Positions 1,897 to 22,488 of a stretch of DNA of 23,937 nucleotides are shown here, piece after piece (the stretch's first letter is position 1; every line of letters starts with the position of its first letter). The translations under genes and the position numbers were made by a program. The notes below the pieces were generated by a model. The model was not told the origin of the DNA, did no database searches, and saw only the letters and a list, made by a program, of their open reading frames with translations. The DNA comes from a virus: the IMG/VR virus record IMGVR_UViG_3300025929_000048, positions 1-23,937 of that record, one strand, 5' to 3'.

Positions 1897-2766
1897 GTGG
1901 CGGCCGAAGGGCTGAAGTGGCGTGTAAACCGGGCGGTCCAGGAATCAACCCTGCCCGCACCCTCGCGGCTACTGATGTTCGTGCTCTCCGACCGGGCCGA
2001 CGCGCGCACCGCGGTCGTGCCCGAGGACCGCACGCCGTCGCTGGCCGATCTGGCAAAGTGCTCCGGCCACAGCGAGGCGACCGTCAAGCGGCACATGGGC
2101 CTGCTTGAGGCGAACGGCTGGGTGGTCGTGGAGCGCCCGAGCGCCGAGGGGATGGCTCGCCACGAGTCGAACAGGTACCGCCTTGCGCTCCCGCGCGGGG
2201 GCTCAGAGCGAGCCCCCGAATCGTCAAATGCGGGGGCTCAGAGTGAGCTACCGGCGGGGGCTCAGAGTGAGCCAGCGGATTCGGGTCCGGGGGCTCAGAG
2301 TGAGCCCACCGGGGGCTCAGAGCGAGCCCGCGCGGGGGCTCAGAGTGAGCCCCCTTCCTTTATAACGATCCTTAACGATCTAGACGATCTAAAGACTGCG
2401 CCTGACGGCGGCGCGACGCCCGCCCAGACGACCCTCTTCGCCGACGCCCAAACACCCCCCTCCGAAACCGAGGGGCAACGCGTCAACAGGCTCACACGGA
2501 CCTACACCGACCGAGTCCCGCTCTCCCCGTTCCTCGCCGTCCAGGGCGTCGTGCGCATGGCCGCCCGAGCCCGCAACGGCGCCGGGGGCCCGCTCTACAC
2601 CGACGCCCAGATCACCGACGGCCTCGCAGTCCTAGTCAAGGAAAACCGCGCCGTCAGCGCCAACGCCCTGCGCATCGCCATCGAGGGCGCCCCCCGCGCC
2701 TCGCCCAACAGTCACGCCCCCTGGCGCAACCCCACCGACCCGTCCGTCTACCACGAGGCCATCTGA
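1897..2766 (+). CDS. Winged-helix replication initiator-like protein (lambda O analogue)
   Basis: The 289-residue product has three parts. Residues 1-100 form a winged helix-turn-helix domain (PSLADLAKCSGHSEATVKRH, then LLEANGWVVVE as the wing). Residues 101-153 form a low-complexity linker with repeated GAQSEP and GGSERA, encoded by DNA iterons. The C-terminal domain (about 195-289) includes TRTYTDRVPLSPFLAVQGVV and may bind the helicase loader. GTG 1897 has GAGAGGGAG just upstream, and the promoter lies 30-55 bases before it. The next gene is a DnaC-like ATPase that overlaps the stop. This order of DNA-binding domain, linker holding an origin, C-terminal domain and loader gene is that of lambda O and P. 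The role is inferred from architecture and context, not from sequence similarity to O itself. Confidence 0.75.
   Translation: MAAEGLKWRVNRAVQESTLPAPSRLLMFVLSDRADARTAVVPEDRTPSLADLAKCSGHSEATVKRHMGLLEANGWVVVERPSAEGMARHESNRYRLALPRGGSERAPESSNAGAQSELPAGAQSEPADSGPGAQSEPTGGSERARAGAQSEPPSFITILNDLDDLKTAPDGGATPAQTTLFADAQTPPSETEGQRVNRLTRTYTDRVPLSPFLAVQGVVRMAARARNGAGGPLYTDAQITDGLAVLVKENRAVSANALRIAIEGAPRASPNSHAPWRNPTDPSVYHEAI
2197..2354 (+). repeat. Six origin-like iterons inside the initiator gene
   Basis: The 17-base core gggggctcagagygagc occurs six times in direct orientation, starting at 2197, 2232, 2256, 2289, 2311 and 2334. Most copies extend to gagccc or gagccccc, so each unit is itself an inverted repeat (GGGCTC/GAGCCC). 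Start-to-start distances are 35, 24, 33, 22 and 23 bases, close to two or three helical turns, so the sites fall roughly on one face of the helix. The units encode GGSERA or GAQSEL/P in one frame. Nucleotide conservation includes bases that the protein would not require, as expected for protein-binding sites. Confidence 0.85.
2355..2396 (+). other. AT-rich putative DNA-unwinding element
   Basis: Immediately after the last iteron the composition falls sharply to a tract beginning ttcctttataacgatcctta. Within it ACGATC recurs three times at 2365-2370, 2375-2380 and 2384-2389, about one helical turn apart, embedded in A/T. In lambda-type and many plasmid origins the iterons are followed by such an AT-rich region, where the duplex first opens. 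In the protein this tract encodes FITILNDLDDLK. I see no Streptomyces-type DnaA box nearby. The origin call is an inference from layout. Confidence 0.65.
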
Positions 2767-3458
2767 TGGAAACACCCGACTTCGGCGACACACCGCCCGA
2801 CCTGCTCAACACCATCCGCTCCCTCCTACCCAAGCGCCTGACCTGCGACCCCAGCGACATCGACAACCCCAACTGGGAAGGCACACCCGCCTGGTTCCGC
2901 AAGCGCAACCGCGAGCACGCCACCCGCAACGTCCCCACCCGGTACGCCGACGCCGTCACCAACCTGACCGGCATCCACGAGTGGACCATGCAAGTGCTCG
3001 CCGACGCGGCCCACGCCCCCTCGCTGCTGATCACCGGGCCGACCGGAACCGGAAAGACCCACGCCGCATACGCCGCCCTGCGGCTGATGTCCGAAAGCTG
3101 CCTGCCCGTCGGACGGTGGGTCGCCACCTCCACCGCCGCCCTCTACGGAGACCTGCGGCCCAGCGGCAAACGCGACACCGAGGCCACCTTCGCCACCTTC
3201 GCCAACGCGCCCGCGCTGCTGATCGACGACCTCGGCGCCACCAAGCACACCGAATGGACCGAAGAGACCACCTACCGGCTCATAGACCACCGATACGTCA
3301 ACTGCCTGCCATCGATCTTCACCACCAACGTGCCGCCGAAAGACCTCGCCGAGCGCCTCGGCGACCGCACCGCATCCCGGCTCGCCGAGATGTGCGAGCG
3401 CATCGTGCTCGAAGGCAGCGACCGGCGCCGCGCCTCCATGGCCGGAGTCGGCCGATGA
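2766..3458 (+). CDS. DnaC/IstB-type AAA+ helicase loader
   Basis: The 230-residue ATPase has Walker A GPTGTGKT (91-98), Walker B LLIDDLG (151-157), sensor 1 FTTN (185-188) and an arginine-finger region GDRTASRLAEMC (199-210, R201 and R205 as candidates). This is the pattern of DnaC, DnaI and IstB-like loaders, which deliver the replicative DnaB helicase to an origin. The N-terminal 60 residues probably hold the partner-binding part, though a classical zinc motif is missing. The start overlaps the stop of the initiator gene (TGATGG at 2764-2769). The length fits phage loaders. With no transposase nearby, an IstB role in transposition is unlikely, and it is best read as the lambda P counterpart. 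Confidence 0.9.
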   Translation: METPDFGDTPPDLLNTIRSLLPKRLTCDPSDIDNPNWEGTPAWFRKRNREHATRNVPTRYADAVTNLTGIHEWTMQVLADAAHAPSLLITGPTGTGKTHAAYAALRLMSESCLPVGRWVATSTAALYGDLRPSGKRDTEATFATFANAPALLIDDLGATKHTEWTEETTYRLIDHRYVNCLPSIFTTNVPPKDLAERLGDRTASRLAEMCERIVLEGSDRRRASMAGVGR

Positions 3459-4784: not shown

Positions 4785-5500
4785 GCCGCCCCCGCCTGCT
4801 CGACCTGTTCTGCGGCGTCGGCGCGGCCTCGGTCGGCTACCACCGCGCCGGCTTCGACGTCATCGGCGTGGACATCCACCCGCAACCCGACTACCCCTTC
4901 ACCTTCCACCGCGCCGACGCGATCGAGACCGCCTACTTCCACGGCGCCGAATACGACGCGATCCACGCCTCACCCCCGTGCCAGGACCGCATCGCCATCA
5001 CCGCCGGCAACCGCAAACGACCCGGCTGGAAAGACTCACACGTCAACCTCGTCCCCCACACACGCGAAGCCCTCGCATGGGTGCGCGACCGAACCGAGAT
5101 CCCCACCGTCATCGAATGCGGCGTGGGCCGACACCTACGCCGCGACCTGACCTTGTGCGGGGAGATGTTCGGCCTCGGAGTCATCCGCCACCGCTGGTTC
5201 GAGATCGACGGATTCGACGTCCCGCAGCCCGCCGAGAGGCCACACCGCGGCTACGTACGCGGCTGGCGCCACGGCGTCTACCGAGACGGCCCCTACCTCG
5301 CCGTCTACGGCGCCGGCGGCGGCAAGGGCACCGTCACCGAATGGCAGCAGGCCATGGGCATCGACTGGACCGACGACGCCAGATCGATCGCCGAAGCCAT
5401 CCCGCCCGCCTACACCGAGCACATCGGCCGCCACATGCTCGAGCAGATCGAACTAGACCGCACCAGCCCGCACCACACCGTCACGCGGAGGGGAGCATGA
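4781..5500 (+). CDS. DNA (cytosine-5) methyltransferase, compact phage type
   Basis: The 239-residue enzyme has motif I LLDLFCGVGAASVGYHRAGF (6-25, AdoMet binding), motif IV SPPCQ (64-68, catalytic C67), LCGEMFGLGVIRHRWFE (125-141, motif VIII region) and AIPPAYTEHIG (206-216, motif X). Such short forms are common in actinophages and may protect phage DNA from host restriction. Motif VI, normally ENV, reads VIECGVG (110-116): the Glu is kept but the Asn is Cys. Target recognition must be confined to the short segment at about 142-195. The start is fixed by the ATGA overlap with the nuclease gene. Activity is likely but the motif VI change leaves some doubt. Confidence 0.9.
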   Translation: MSRPRLLDLFCGVGAASVGYHRAGFDVIGVDIHPQPDYPFTFHRADAIETAYFHGAEYDAIHASPPCQDRIAITAGNRKRPGWKDSHVNLVPHTREALAWVRDRTEIPTVIECGVGRHLRRDLTLCGEMFGLGVIRHRWFEIDGFDVPQPAERPHRGYVRGWRHGVYRDGPYLAVYGAGGGKGTVTEWQQAMGIDWTDDARSIAEAIPPAYTEHIGRHMLEQIELDRTSPHHTVTRRGA

Positions 5501-10727: not shown

Positions 10728-11345
10728 ATGGGCAATCGTATATGCACCATCGACGGCTGCGAGCGGCCCCACAACGCTCGAGGGCTCTGCAAGCCCCACT
10801 ACAAGTACGCTGAGCGCCACGGATCGCTGCCCCCTCGTCAGCGCGTTATCCCCATCGAAGAACGCTTCTGGCAGAAGGTGGCTCTTTCGGCCGAGCCAGA
10901 TGGATGCCTCCTCTGGATGGCTGCGCTAGATCCCCACGGGTATGGGCGCTTCGGTACTACCACCGGAACTGTCTTCGCGCATCGCTTCGCGTTCGAACTC
11001 GTGGTTGGGCCGATACCGGAGGGGCTTCAGCTCGACCATCTTTGCCGGGTGCATTCCTGCGTGAATCCGGCGCACCTTGAGCCGGTAACGGGCCACGAGA
11101 ACACCATACGCGGGATAAGCGGATCGGCTATCAACGCCCGGAAGACGGTGTGCGTTCACGGCCACCCATTCGATGAGGAAAACACGTCCTATCTCACGCG
11201 CGGCGGCAGGCAGTGTCGCGCATGTTGGCGCAAGAAGGCGGCCGACAAGGCGGTGCTACGCAGGCTTACCAGCAGTATGCCCGGACCAGACTCGCCAGTT
11301 CCAGGTGGGGACATTCAGATGGCGGAACTTGGCTCCCGCATCTAG
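10728..11345 (+). CDS. HNH endonuclease with flanking zinc modules (homing type)
   Basis: The 205-residue protein has an N-terminal zinc module (CTIDGCERPHNARGLCKPHY), then a core with CLLWMAALDPHGYGRFG, HRFAFELVVGPIPEGLQLDH, LCRVHSCVNPAHLEPVTGHEN (the HNH active site, with the first His in LDH) and a C-terminal module VCVHGHPFDEENTS with CRAC. These are free-standing HNH homing endonucleases typical of actinophages, which cut DNA and spread by gene conversion. Start ATG 10728 has GAGAGG upstream. The last 30 codons (from 11256) overlap the 3' end of the minus-strand GT2 gene and look unstructured, as if the ORF had run on into its insertion site. Confidence 0.9.
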   Translation: MGNRICTIDGCERPHNARGLCKPHYKYAERHGSLPPRQRVIPIEERFWQKVALSAEPDGCLLWMAALDPHGYGRFGTTTGTVFAHRFAFELVVGPIPEGLQLDHLCRVHSCVNPAHLEPVTGHENTIRGISGSAINARKTVCVHGHPFDEENTSYLTRGGRQCRACWRKKAADKAVLRRLTSSMPGPDSPVPGGDIQMAELGSRI

Positions 11346-21287: not shown

Positions 21288-21923
21288 ATGGCAGACGACC
21301 CCACCAAGCCGGGCCCGGCCGACCCGGAGCCGGCCGACCCGGACGAGCTCGAAGAGGTCGACGACCCGCAGGACGGCGACGACCCCGAGGGCGAGCCGTG
21401 GACGCCTCCGACCCGTGAGCAGTGGGAGGCGCACCAGGCCGCGCTCGAGGCGGAGCGCGCGAAGCTCAAGCGGGCCCGCGACCAGGCCAAGCGGCTACGC
21501 GAAGGCAAGCCGCCCACCGATCCGGCCGCGACCGCGCCGGCGGCCGTGGCGCCGGGTGAGGTGGACGTGTGGAAGAGCCGCGCGGTGCGCGCCGCCGCGA
21601 AGGCCGAGCTGATCGACCGCGGCGCCGACCCGGACATGGTCGACCTCGCACTCGGCCGCCTGAAGGCGGACCAGATCGAGTTCGACGCCGACGACGAGCC
21701 GGAGCTCGACGACTGGCTCGACGAGATGCAGGAGCGCTACCCGAAGCTGTTCGCCAAGGCGCCCGCCGCCCCCACAGCCGACCCCCGGCCGCGTGCGGGC
21801 CGCGTCAACCAGGCCGCGCCCGCAGGTGGAACTCCGGCGCGGCCCAAGATGTCGCTCGGCGAGGCGATCATCGCGAAGTCGGAGGCCGCTCGGCGGGCCG
21901 GGCGCCGCGGTATCGGGGGCTGA
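21288..21923 (+). CDS. Capsid scaffolding protein
   Basis: The 211-residue protein is acidic and Pro-rich at the N terminus (PADPEPADPDELEEVDDPQD), then has a coiled-coil segment with REQWEAHQAALEAERAKLKR and ARDQAKRLREGKPP (about 43-75). A second helical part (KSRAVRAAAKAELIDRGADP, DMVDLALGRLKADQIEF) is followed by an Ala/Pro linker and a basic C-terminal helix (IIAKSEAARRAGRRG). This domain order is the usual one for phage scaffolds, in which the basic C terminus binds the capsid protein. ATG 21288 has AGCGGAGGAAACC before it. It normally lies next to the major capsid gene; here an HNH cassette sits between them. Confidence 0.88.
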   Translation: MADDPTKPGPADPEPADPDELEEVDDPQDGDDPEGEPWTPPTREQWEAHQAALEAERAKLKRARDQAKRLREGKPPTDPAATAPAAVAPGEVDVWKSRAVRAAAKAELIDRGADPDMVDLALGRLKADQIEFDADDEPELDDWLDEMQERYPKLFAKAPAAPTADPRPRAGRVNQAAPAGGTPARPKMSLGEAIIAKSEAARRAGRRGIGG

Positions 21924-21932
21924 ACACTCGTT

Positions 21933-21988
21933 CGATAGAATGGAGCCACGAAAAGCCCCCGCGACGGCGGCAACCGTCCGGGGGCGTG
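21933..21988 (+). ncRNA. Structured leader of HNH cassette 2
   Basis: CGATAGAATG (21933-21942) contains the -10-like TAGAAT at 21936-21941. Downstream, P1 pairs GCCCCCG (21955-21961) with CGGGGGC (21979-21985). P2 inside it pairs GACGG (21963-21967) with CCGTC (21974-21978) around the loop CGGCAA. The distance from box to P1 is 14-15 bases here and 16-17 in cassette 1. Compared with cassette 1, P2 changes C-G to A-T and T-A to G-C at equal positions, so pairing is kept while sequence changes. A -35 is not recognisable. Confidence 0.7.
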
Positions 21989-22008
21989 GCCGACCGCGTG
22001 GAGTCGAC

Positions 22009-22488
22009 ATGTCCCATCTTAGCGACCTCGAGCGTTTCATCTTGAAGGTCCCCGTGCGTGGAAACGGATGTTGGCCCTGGGGCGCATATCTGCACCCGAA
22101 GGGCTATGGCCGCTTCTCGCTCGGCGGCAAAATGATCTGGGCGCATCAGGCTGCGTACCTACTCCTCATTGGTCCCGTACCTGCGGGGCTTAGCGTTGAA
22201 CACGCATGCCACACGCGCGATACAAGCTGCCCTGGCGGTTCAACATGTCCGCATCGGGCATGTGTGCGCCCATCGCACCTTGAACTGCTCACCGGCCGAG
22301 AGAACATCCTGCGAGGCCGAAGCCCGTCTGCCGCCTGCGCCGTAAAAACACACTGCCCCGCTGGCCACCCATACGATGCCGGCAATACCTATGTCAGCCC
22401 GAGCGGCGATCGTACGTGTCGAACGTGCAAGGTTGAAACGCGTTTGCGGTATCGCACAAGAGTTCGACCCGGTGTATCCTCCAGCTAG
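22009..22488 (+). CDS. HNH endonuclease (homing type)
   Basis: The 159-residue protein has FILKVPVRGNGCWPWGAYLH, PKGYGRFSLGGKMIWAHQAA, YLLLIGPVPAGLSVEHACH and CVRPSHLELLTGRENILRGR. The HNH core is VEHACH with the later His in RPSHLELL and Asn in RENI. A Cys-rich insert (CPGGSTCPHRAC) and a C-terminal pair (HCPAGHPYDAGNT, CRTC) probably bind zinc. It lacks the N-terminal zinc module of the HNH in cassette 1 and is only distantly similar to it, although the leaders match. ATG 22009 has GTGGAG six bases upstream. The stop TAG 22486-22488 is followed by a small inverted repeat. Confidence 0.9.
   Translation: MSHLSDLERFILKVPVRGNGCWPWGAYLHPKGYGRFSLGGKMIWAHQAAYLLLIGPVPAGLSVEHACHTRDTSCPGGSTCPHRACVRPSHLELLTGRENILRGRSPSAACAVKTHCPAGHPYDAGNTYVSPSGDRTCRTCKVETRLRYRTRVRPGVSSS

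Follow-up and report, generated by a model that had tools for sequence, protein, structure and literature searches.

A candidate replication origin inside the O-like initiator gene of a high-GC virus, laid out as in phage lambda

The window, by which we mean the whole stretch of 23,937 bases of the virus record that was analyzed (GC 0.69), carries a gene for an O-like replication initiator. Inside this gene lie six direct repeats (iterons) and an AT-rich tract, and the gene of a helicase loader comes next. The features of this region, all on the + strand, are as follows.

1841-1869, promoter-like site TAGACC-17-TATAAT, in the lowest-GC region of the window (about 1830-1875)
1843-1873, inverted repeat GACCATTATAGT/ACTATAATGATC, overlapping the promoter-like site
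1897-2766, O-like replication initiator, 289 aa, GTG start (PHROG 391/270/1032)
1897-2196, N-terminal winged-helix domain of the initiator, aa 1-100, recognition helix SEATVKR (AlphaFold2, PDB matches)
2197-2213, iteron 1, frame 0, palindrome complete to 2217
2232-2248, iteron 2, frame 2
2256-2272, iteron 3, frame 2
2289-2305, iteron 4, frame 2
2311-2327, iteron 5, frame 0
2334-2350, iteron 6, frame 2, palindrome complete to 2354
2355-2396, AT-rich tract, presumed unwinding element, GC 0.36 against 0.69 overall
within 2355-2396, direct repeats AACGATCCTT / AACGATCTAG / ACGATCTAA (repeat analysis)
2452-2763, C-terminal helical domain of the initiator, presumed contact for the loader or helicase (similarity to the relatives L003 and L281; AlphaFold2 helices)
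2766-3458, DnaC-like AAA+ helicase loader, 230 aa (PHROG 50, E 2.8e-34)

The stretch 1841-1873 is likely the promoter/operator of the initiator gene, as predicted from the first two features. Divergent from this gene, on the - strand at 1575-1775, lies a Phd/YefM-type antitoxin gene (PF02604, E 1e-8), with no partner toxin recognized adjacent to it. Two HNH endonuclease genes (10728-11345 and 21793-22488) are found elsewhere in the window, and its right third contains terminase, portal, and capsid genes.

Residues 8-152 of the initiator match PHROG 391, 270, and 1032 (E 4.4e-9, 1.4e-8, and 9e-8), the first of which is named "replication initiation O-like." Pfam gave no match above its cut-off, only sub-threshold MarR_2/HTH hits, and no Rep-type domain of iteron plasmids was among them. 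In an AlphaFold2 model built on eight relatives, residues 1-100 form a winged helix, 101-186 are of low confidence, and 192-263 are helical; residues 101-167, coded by the iterons and the AT-rich tract, form a linker that is predicted to be disordered. The original prediction held that the iterons encode the linker between the DNA-binding and C-terminal domains, and the low-confidence segment indeed covers them. Winged-helix matches in the PDB reach Z 10.6 and include many regulators, and a Foldseek search of the PDB returned generic winged-helix regulators only, none at E <= 0.001. Matches among predicted viral structures include proteins named as replication initiators or as "lambda GpO, N-terminal"; a sequence search for an O-family structure found none. 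Searches of viral contigs, GTDB contigs, and the phage collection brought up no close relative of the whole initiator, and a plasmid search with the whole protein gave a weak partial match.

The iterons are six exact copies of GGGGGCTCAGAGYGAGC (in full, GGGGGCTCAGAG[C/T]GAGC) spanning 2197-2350, with start-to-start spacings of 35, 24, 33, 22, and 23. The core CTCARARYGAG occurs six times in the 23,937 bases, always within the array, where shuffled sequence would be expected to hold 0.05 copies; six iterons with a quasi-palindromic core inside a winged-helix gene, as originally proposed, are thus borne out. The full right arm of the palindrome (GAGCCCCC) is present in copies 1 and 6 only, and in copies 2-5 it decays beyond GAGC. 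A search with the exact iteron returned 108 stretches, all with scattered single matches and none with an array. The copies are read in frames 0, 2, 2, 2, 0, and 2 and translate as GGSERA (twice) and GAQSEP/L (four times); with iterons in two reading frames, it is the DNA and not the peptide that is conserved. When codons were shuffled synonymously, CTCAGAGYGAG reached three copies in 2 of 5000 trials and six in 0 of 5000. Third-position GC is 0.88-0.90 on both flanks, 0.62 in the iterons, and 0.43 in the AT-rich tract, and codons ending in A or T make up 28/68 of the linker against 25/222 in the rest of the gene (p = 3e-7). Mixed frames, synonymous shuffles, and this codon excess together indicate that the constraint acts on DNA. 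They also bear on the idea that the linker is a low-complexity GAQSEP-repeat peptide extended through DNA slippage, the DNA itself having no function. Disordered linkers such as the one predicted here often bear repeats, but slippage would hardly leave copies in two frames with unlike spacers, an array that synonymous shuffles do not reproduce, or A/T-ending codons retained in the linker and avoided elsewhere; since relatives moreover retain DNA arrays and not the peptide, we regard this origin of the repeats as highly improbable.

The AT-rich tract with three ACGATC repeats, which had been predicted to follow the iterons, is found directly after them. The repeats start at 2365, 2375, and 2384 (the whole window holds 10 such words), and the 45 bp from 2353 have a GC content of 0.38, second in the window only to the promoter region upstream. 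Taken alone, the ACGATC triple is modestly unusual, arising in 45 of 5000 synonymous shuffles (p about 0.009), and 8% of 80-nt segments here contain a generic triple. The candidate origin site is not marked by a switch in GC skew. The loader gene starts within the stop of the initiator gene (TGATG), and its product also matches IstB_IS21 in Pfam and the DnaC structures 3ecc and 6qel. A loader related to lambda P is ruled out by the DnaC/IstB AAA+ families and the DnaC structures; of the expectation that a DnaC-like loader would follow as P does in lambda, the DnaC-like part stands and the relationship to P does not.

Iterons over the linker, an AT-rich tract directly after them, and a helicase-loader gene next are the features of a lambda-type module. 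We therefore read the locus, with a probability of about 0.83, as a tailed-phage initiator/helicase-loader replication module whose candidate origin lies within the initiator's own coding sequence, as in lambda. This reading draws on the conservation of the iterons at the DNA level, their position over a disordered linker, the families to which the proteins belong, the arrangement of the parts, and the recurrence of the layout in relatives, all of which are observed. Binding, opening, loading, and origin function are modeled on lambda. By this analogy, the winged helix would bind all six iterons, with a dimer probably sitting on each quasi-palindrome; separated by about two or three turns of the helix, the bound copies would assemble an O-some-like complex. 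Such a complex would strain the adjacent AT-rich tract, whose three repeats of about 10 nt would open and be held single-stranded, and the C-terminal domain may then bring the DnaC-like loader and the host helicase to the open strand.

An alternative is that the iterons are operators, with the winged-helix protein only repressing or tuning its own operon and replication starting elsewhere. The protein does have the fold of MarR/Fur/ArsR-type regulators, and MarR_2 was its best sub-threshold Pfam match. However, operators normally lie at the promoter, and here a separate inverted repeat (1843-1873) occupies that place, whereas the iterons lie 300 bp into the gene, ahead of an AT-rich tract and a loader gene in lambda-like order. 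Given also that this layout recurs in several phyla, we consider a purely regulatory role unlikely.

In lambda, the iterons and the AT-rich tract lie in the middle of gene O; O binds these iterons, the tract opens, and O also binds the single strands of the AT-rich tract (PMC7466680). With the lambda origin the locus shares iterons placed within the gene just past the DNA-binding domain, a 5-nt spacer between half-sites, and mixed frames; the lambda iterons are likewise 20-24 bp apart with an AT-rich tract next, and there, too, the loader gene overlaps the initiator stop. The lambda iteron (NC_001416) is ATCCCTCAAAACGAGGGA, and the core of the window iterons, CTCAGAGCGAG, differs from the lambda core, CTCAAAACGAG, at 2 of 11 positions. 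The locus differs from lambda in having six iterons rather than four, GC-rich arms, and a DnaC-like AAA+ loader in place of P. Direct comparison of the initiator with lambda O gave an hhalign probability of 0.1%, a comparison of winged-helix profiles gave no match, and phrog_277, the family of lambda O, was absent from the initiator's matches at E 0.1 (lambda O itself scores 1e-152). The locus is therefore not a relative of lambda O/P in the narrow sense. The prediction that the initiator has no similarity to lambda O accordingly holds for the pairwise comparison, but not for the O-like PHROG match (E 4e-9) or for the nearly shared core.

Initiator/helicase-loader modules of phages have been described (Weigel and Seitz 2006, as cited in PMC3610622 and PMC9144972). 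One instance is the origin of the Bartonella ROR region, which was inferred within an O-like gene, upstream of a helicase/loader gene, from palindromic repeats and a GC dip (PMC3610622). That case belongs to a different host group, and the iterons of the window were additionally assessed against synonymous shuffles and relatives. An in-gene origin with a loader is an already established type of module, and the window is a further member. Iteron plasmids such as RK2 and F offer another comparison. Their iterons stand beside an AT-rich unwinding element with 13-mer direct repeats, and the window iterons similarly adjoin an AT-rich element with short direct repeats. In plasmids, however, the rep gene does not usually contain the iterons, whereas those of the window are inside the initiator gene.

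Relatives that share one domain with the initiator were found in two directions. Loaders in the viral collection are 51% (L003/L004) and 41% (L281) identical to that of the window, and the C-terminal domain of the initiator is about 62% identical in L003 and clearly similar in L281. The N-terminal domains of the L003 and L281 initiators are unlike that of the window, and each has its own linker repeats (CCGTGAGTCACG in L003, GTACGGAATCCGAAC in L281), the L003 array being the weakest of the three (p 0.025, synonymous shuffles). One C-terminal domain is thus combined with three different DNA-binding domains and with as many types of iteron. Searched with the DNA-binding domain, 395 genomes from the taxonomic class of a Streptomyces gave seven matches. 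L314, the closest relative by its winged helix (46% identity), has the identical helix SEATVKR and four iterons of the type TGGGCTCACGGTGAGCCCA, nearly those of the window and resembling TGGGCTCA-n3-TGAGCCCA; more distant relatives (L316-L320) have other repeats in the same place. Winged helix and iterons have apparently been exchanged as one cassette, with the C-terminal domain and the loader staying. The original prediction had staked itself against relatives in which protein repeats are kept over varying synonymous bases, and we found the opposite: DNA iterons are kept, frames shift, and peptides change. In the actinomycete genomes of L314, L317, and L318, no loader was recognized directly after the iteron-bearing, initiator-like gene; these are perhaps integrative elements or plasmid-like islands.

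To look more widely, we assembled a protein-selected sample from matches to PHROG 391/1032 in actinobacterial genomes and in the phyla of a Vreelandella and a Paenibacillus. Together with the window, L281, and L003, this gave 59 initiator genes, chosen without regard to DNA repeats. An array was called where the best repeat family had at least 3 copies and exceeded all 40 synonymous shuffles. By this measure, 32/59 genes carry iteron arrays of their own, in mixed frames in 27/32 and nearly all directly after the winged helix; two of the 32 (L303 and L311) have accidental- or tandem-looking repeats and were later dropped. Spacings in the sampled genes concentrate at 20-25 bp, and a further group falls at 33-39. 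A second, iteron-selected sample came from scans for two neighboring GCTCANANYGAGC, which yielded about 80 stretches each from viruses and from bacteria, many of them arrays in winged-helix ORFs of 200-400 aa. The core of this sample, CTCA-A-YGAG, is the type found in the lambda iteron. As a general core it failed, being absent from O-like genes picked by protein profile in actinobacteria except L290, whose genome had entered through the iteron scan; it marks one subgroup.

Initiators selected by CTCA-A-YGAG have an arginine at the position of R65 of the window in 33/34 cases, against 27/54 in the protein-selected sample (p 9e-7), although the sampled genes are interrelated, so that p-values overstate their independence and shared ancestry inflates the R65 figure. 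The association supports, without proving, the view that the winged helix may read the iterons. It also bears on whether the repeats act as RNA, forming consecutive hairpins in the initiator mRNA through which translation or termination is controlled. The RNA fold of the segment is very stable (z -6.9), and the last iteron with the TTCCTTTATA that follows (2334-2363, inside the initiator gene) resembles an intrinsic terminator, its palindrome forming the stem. Many relatives, however, have arrays in the same place with weak palindromes (CCAGGTCAC, ACGAGGGGGCGCTG, CAACGGGGTGCAA). What is kept is a direct repeat, mostly spaced at 20-25 bp, and the recognition helix tracks the iteron type; an action as RNA is, in our estimation, very unlikely.

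Among cultured phages, the Streptomyces phages SV1, Picard, ToastyFinz, SoJo, and Eklok have 5-6 quasi-palindromic linker iterons after the winged helix, of a GGCCGGAATCCGGCC-like type that differs from the GGGGCTCAGAGYGAGCC of the window. The original prediction had suggested checking related phages for kept iteron number and spacing, and these phages keep both, with spacings of 36, 30, 24, 46, and 23 (Eklok has 35 for one 24) and changing iteron sequence. A loader-sized gene follows the initiator, annotated as a helicase loader in SoJo. Measured against their own shuffles, the arrays of SV1, Picard, ToastyFinz, and Eklok stand narrowly above; those of SoJo, JBD68, KellEzio, and a Vibrio phage stand more clearly above; and those of Yavru and Kels do not. 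None of the cultured-phage records (L394-L403; SV1, Picard, SoJo, Eklok, KellEzio, JBD68, and others) carries an origin annotation. The design had been presented as a lone case in a high-GC actinophage; this part of the prediction did not survive, since the same layout is widespread across several phyla and includes cultured Streptomyces phages. As far as can be read from sequence, the in-gene iteron design is common across several phyla, with iterons that are lineage-specific. In one further group (L154 3795-4051, L156, and L192), the initiator gene has 12 iterons, CTAGCTCATAGTGAGCTAC, at alternating 21/24 bp, in a single frame throughout and followed by ACAACCTAGATA repeats.

A second element was sought after the iterons by counting all 4- to 6-mers in the 80 nt past the last copy. 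In the protein-selected sample, GAACC is present in at least 2 copies in 11/31 genes against 0/155 control regions (p 5e-10), and AACC is found in 18/31 against 9/155. Typical post-iteron repeats, often in mixed frames, are GAACCGTCAGGG GAACCGTCAGAG GAACCGTCA (L302) and AACCGGAATCT AACCGGAAGAG AACC (L281). As a universal word GAACC was rejected, with only 1/33 in the CTCA-selected sample, where other triplet words are found. A triplet test identical for both samples (7-mers at 9-15 nt periods) gave 15/30 genes against 9/154 controls (p 2e-8) and 15/31 against 4/138 (p 7e-10); the background in synonymous shuffles is 13-18%, and part of the triplet signal can therefore be peptide-derived. GC drops after the iterons by a mean of 9.5 points, in 50/61 genes. 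The AACGATC triple of the window is its version of this element. To our knowledge such a set of roughly three direct repeats, at distances of 9-15 nt and directly behind the iterons in about half of the genes, is new: no description was found in the literature searched, whose coverage lacked most subscription journals, among them the main review of phage replication modules. We would put at even odds a two-part plan for the in-gene origins of O-like initiators in several phyla, so far not spelled out. The first part would be a lineage-specific iteron array exchanged with its winged helix, with a readable code between recognition helix and iteron. The second would be about three frame-independent direct repeats of about 9-15 nt in the AT-rich tract (often GAACC-based; AACGATC here), serving as a single-strand landing site for the initiator or the loader.

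For a high-GC phage, the locus is a concrete candidate for the origin. Origins of this type may be readable from sequence alone, as synonymous shuffles and frame changes separate constraint on DNA from constraint on protein. It becomes possible to test how initiator and origin, written in the same bases, keep fitting each other during evolution, and also what purpose the unwinding-element sequence has; the cultured Streptomyces phages, whose arrays carry no annotation, are at hand for such tests. As to the host of the window itself, a Streptomyces or other actinobacterial host is plausible. The best hint of an actinobacterial host is the stretch 4790-5430, with about 75% DNA identity to DNA methyltransferase genes of the Gordonia phages Kamaru and Phabuloso.
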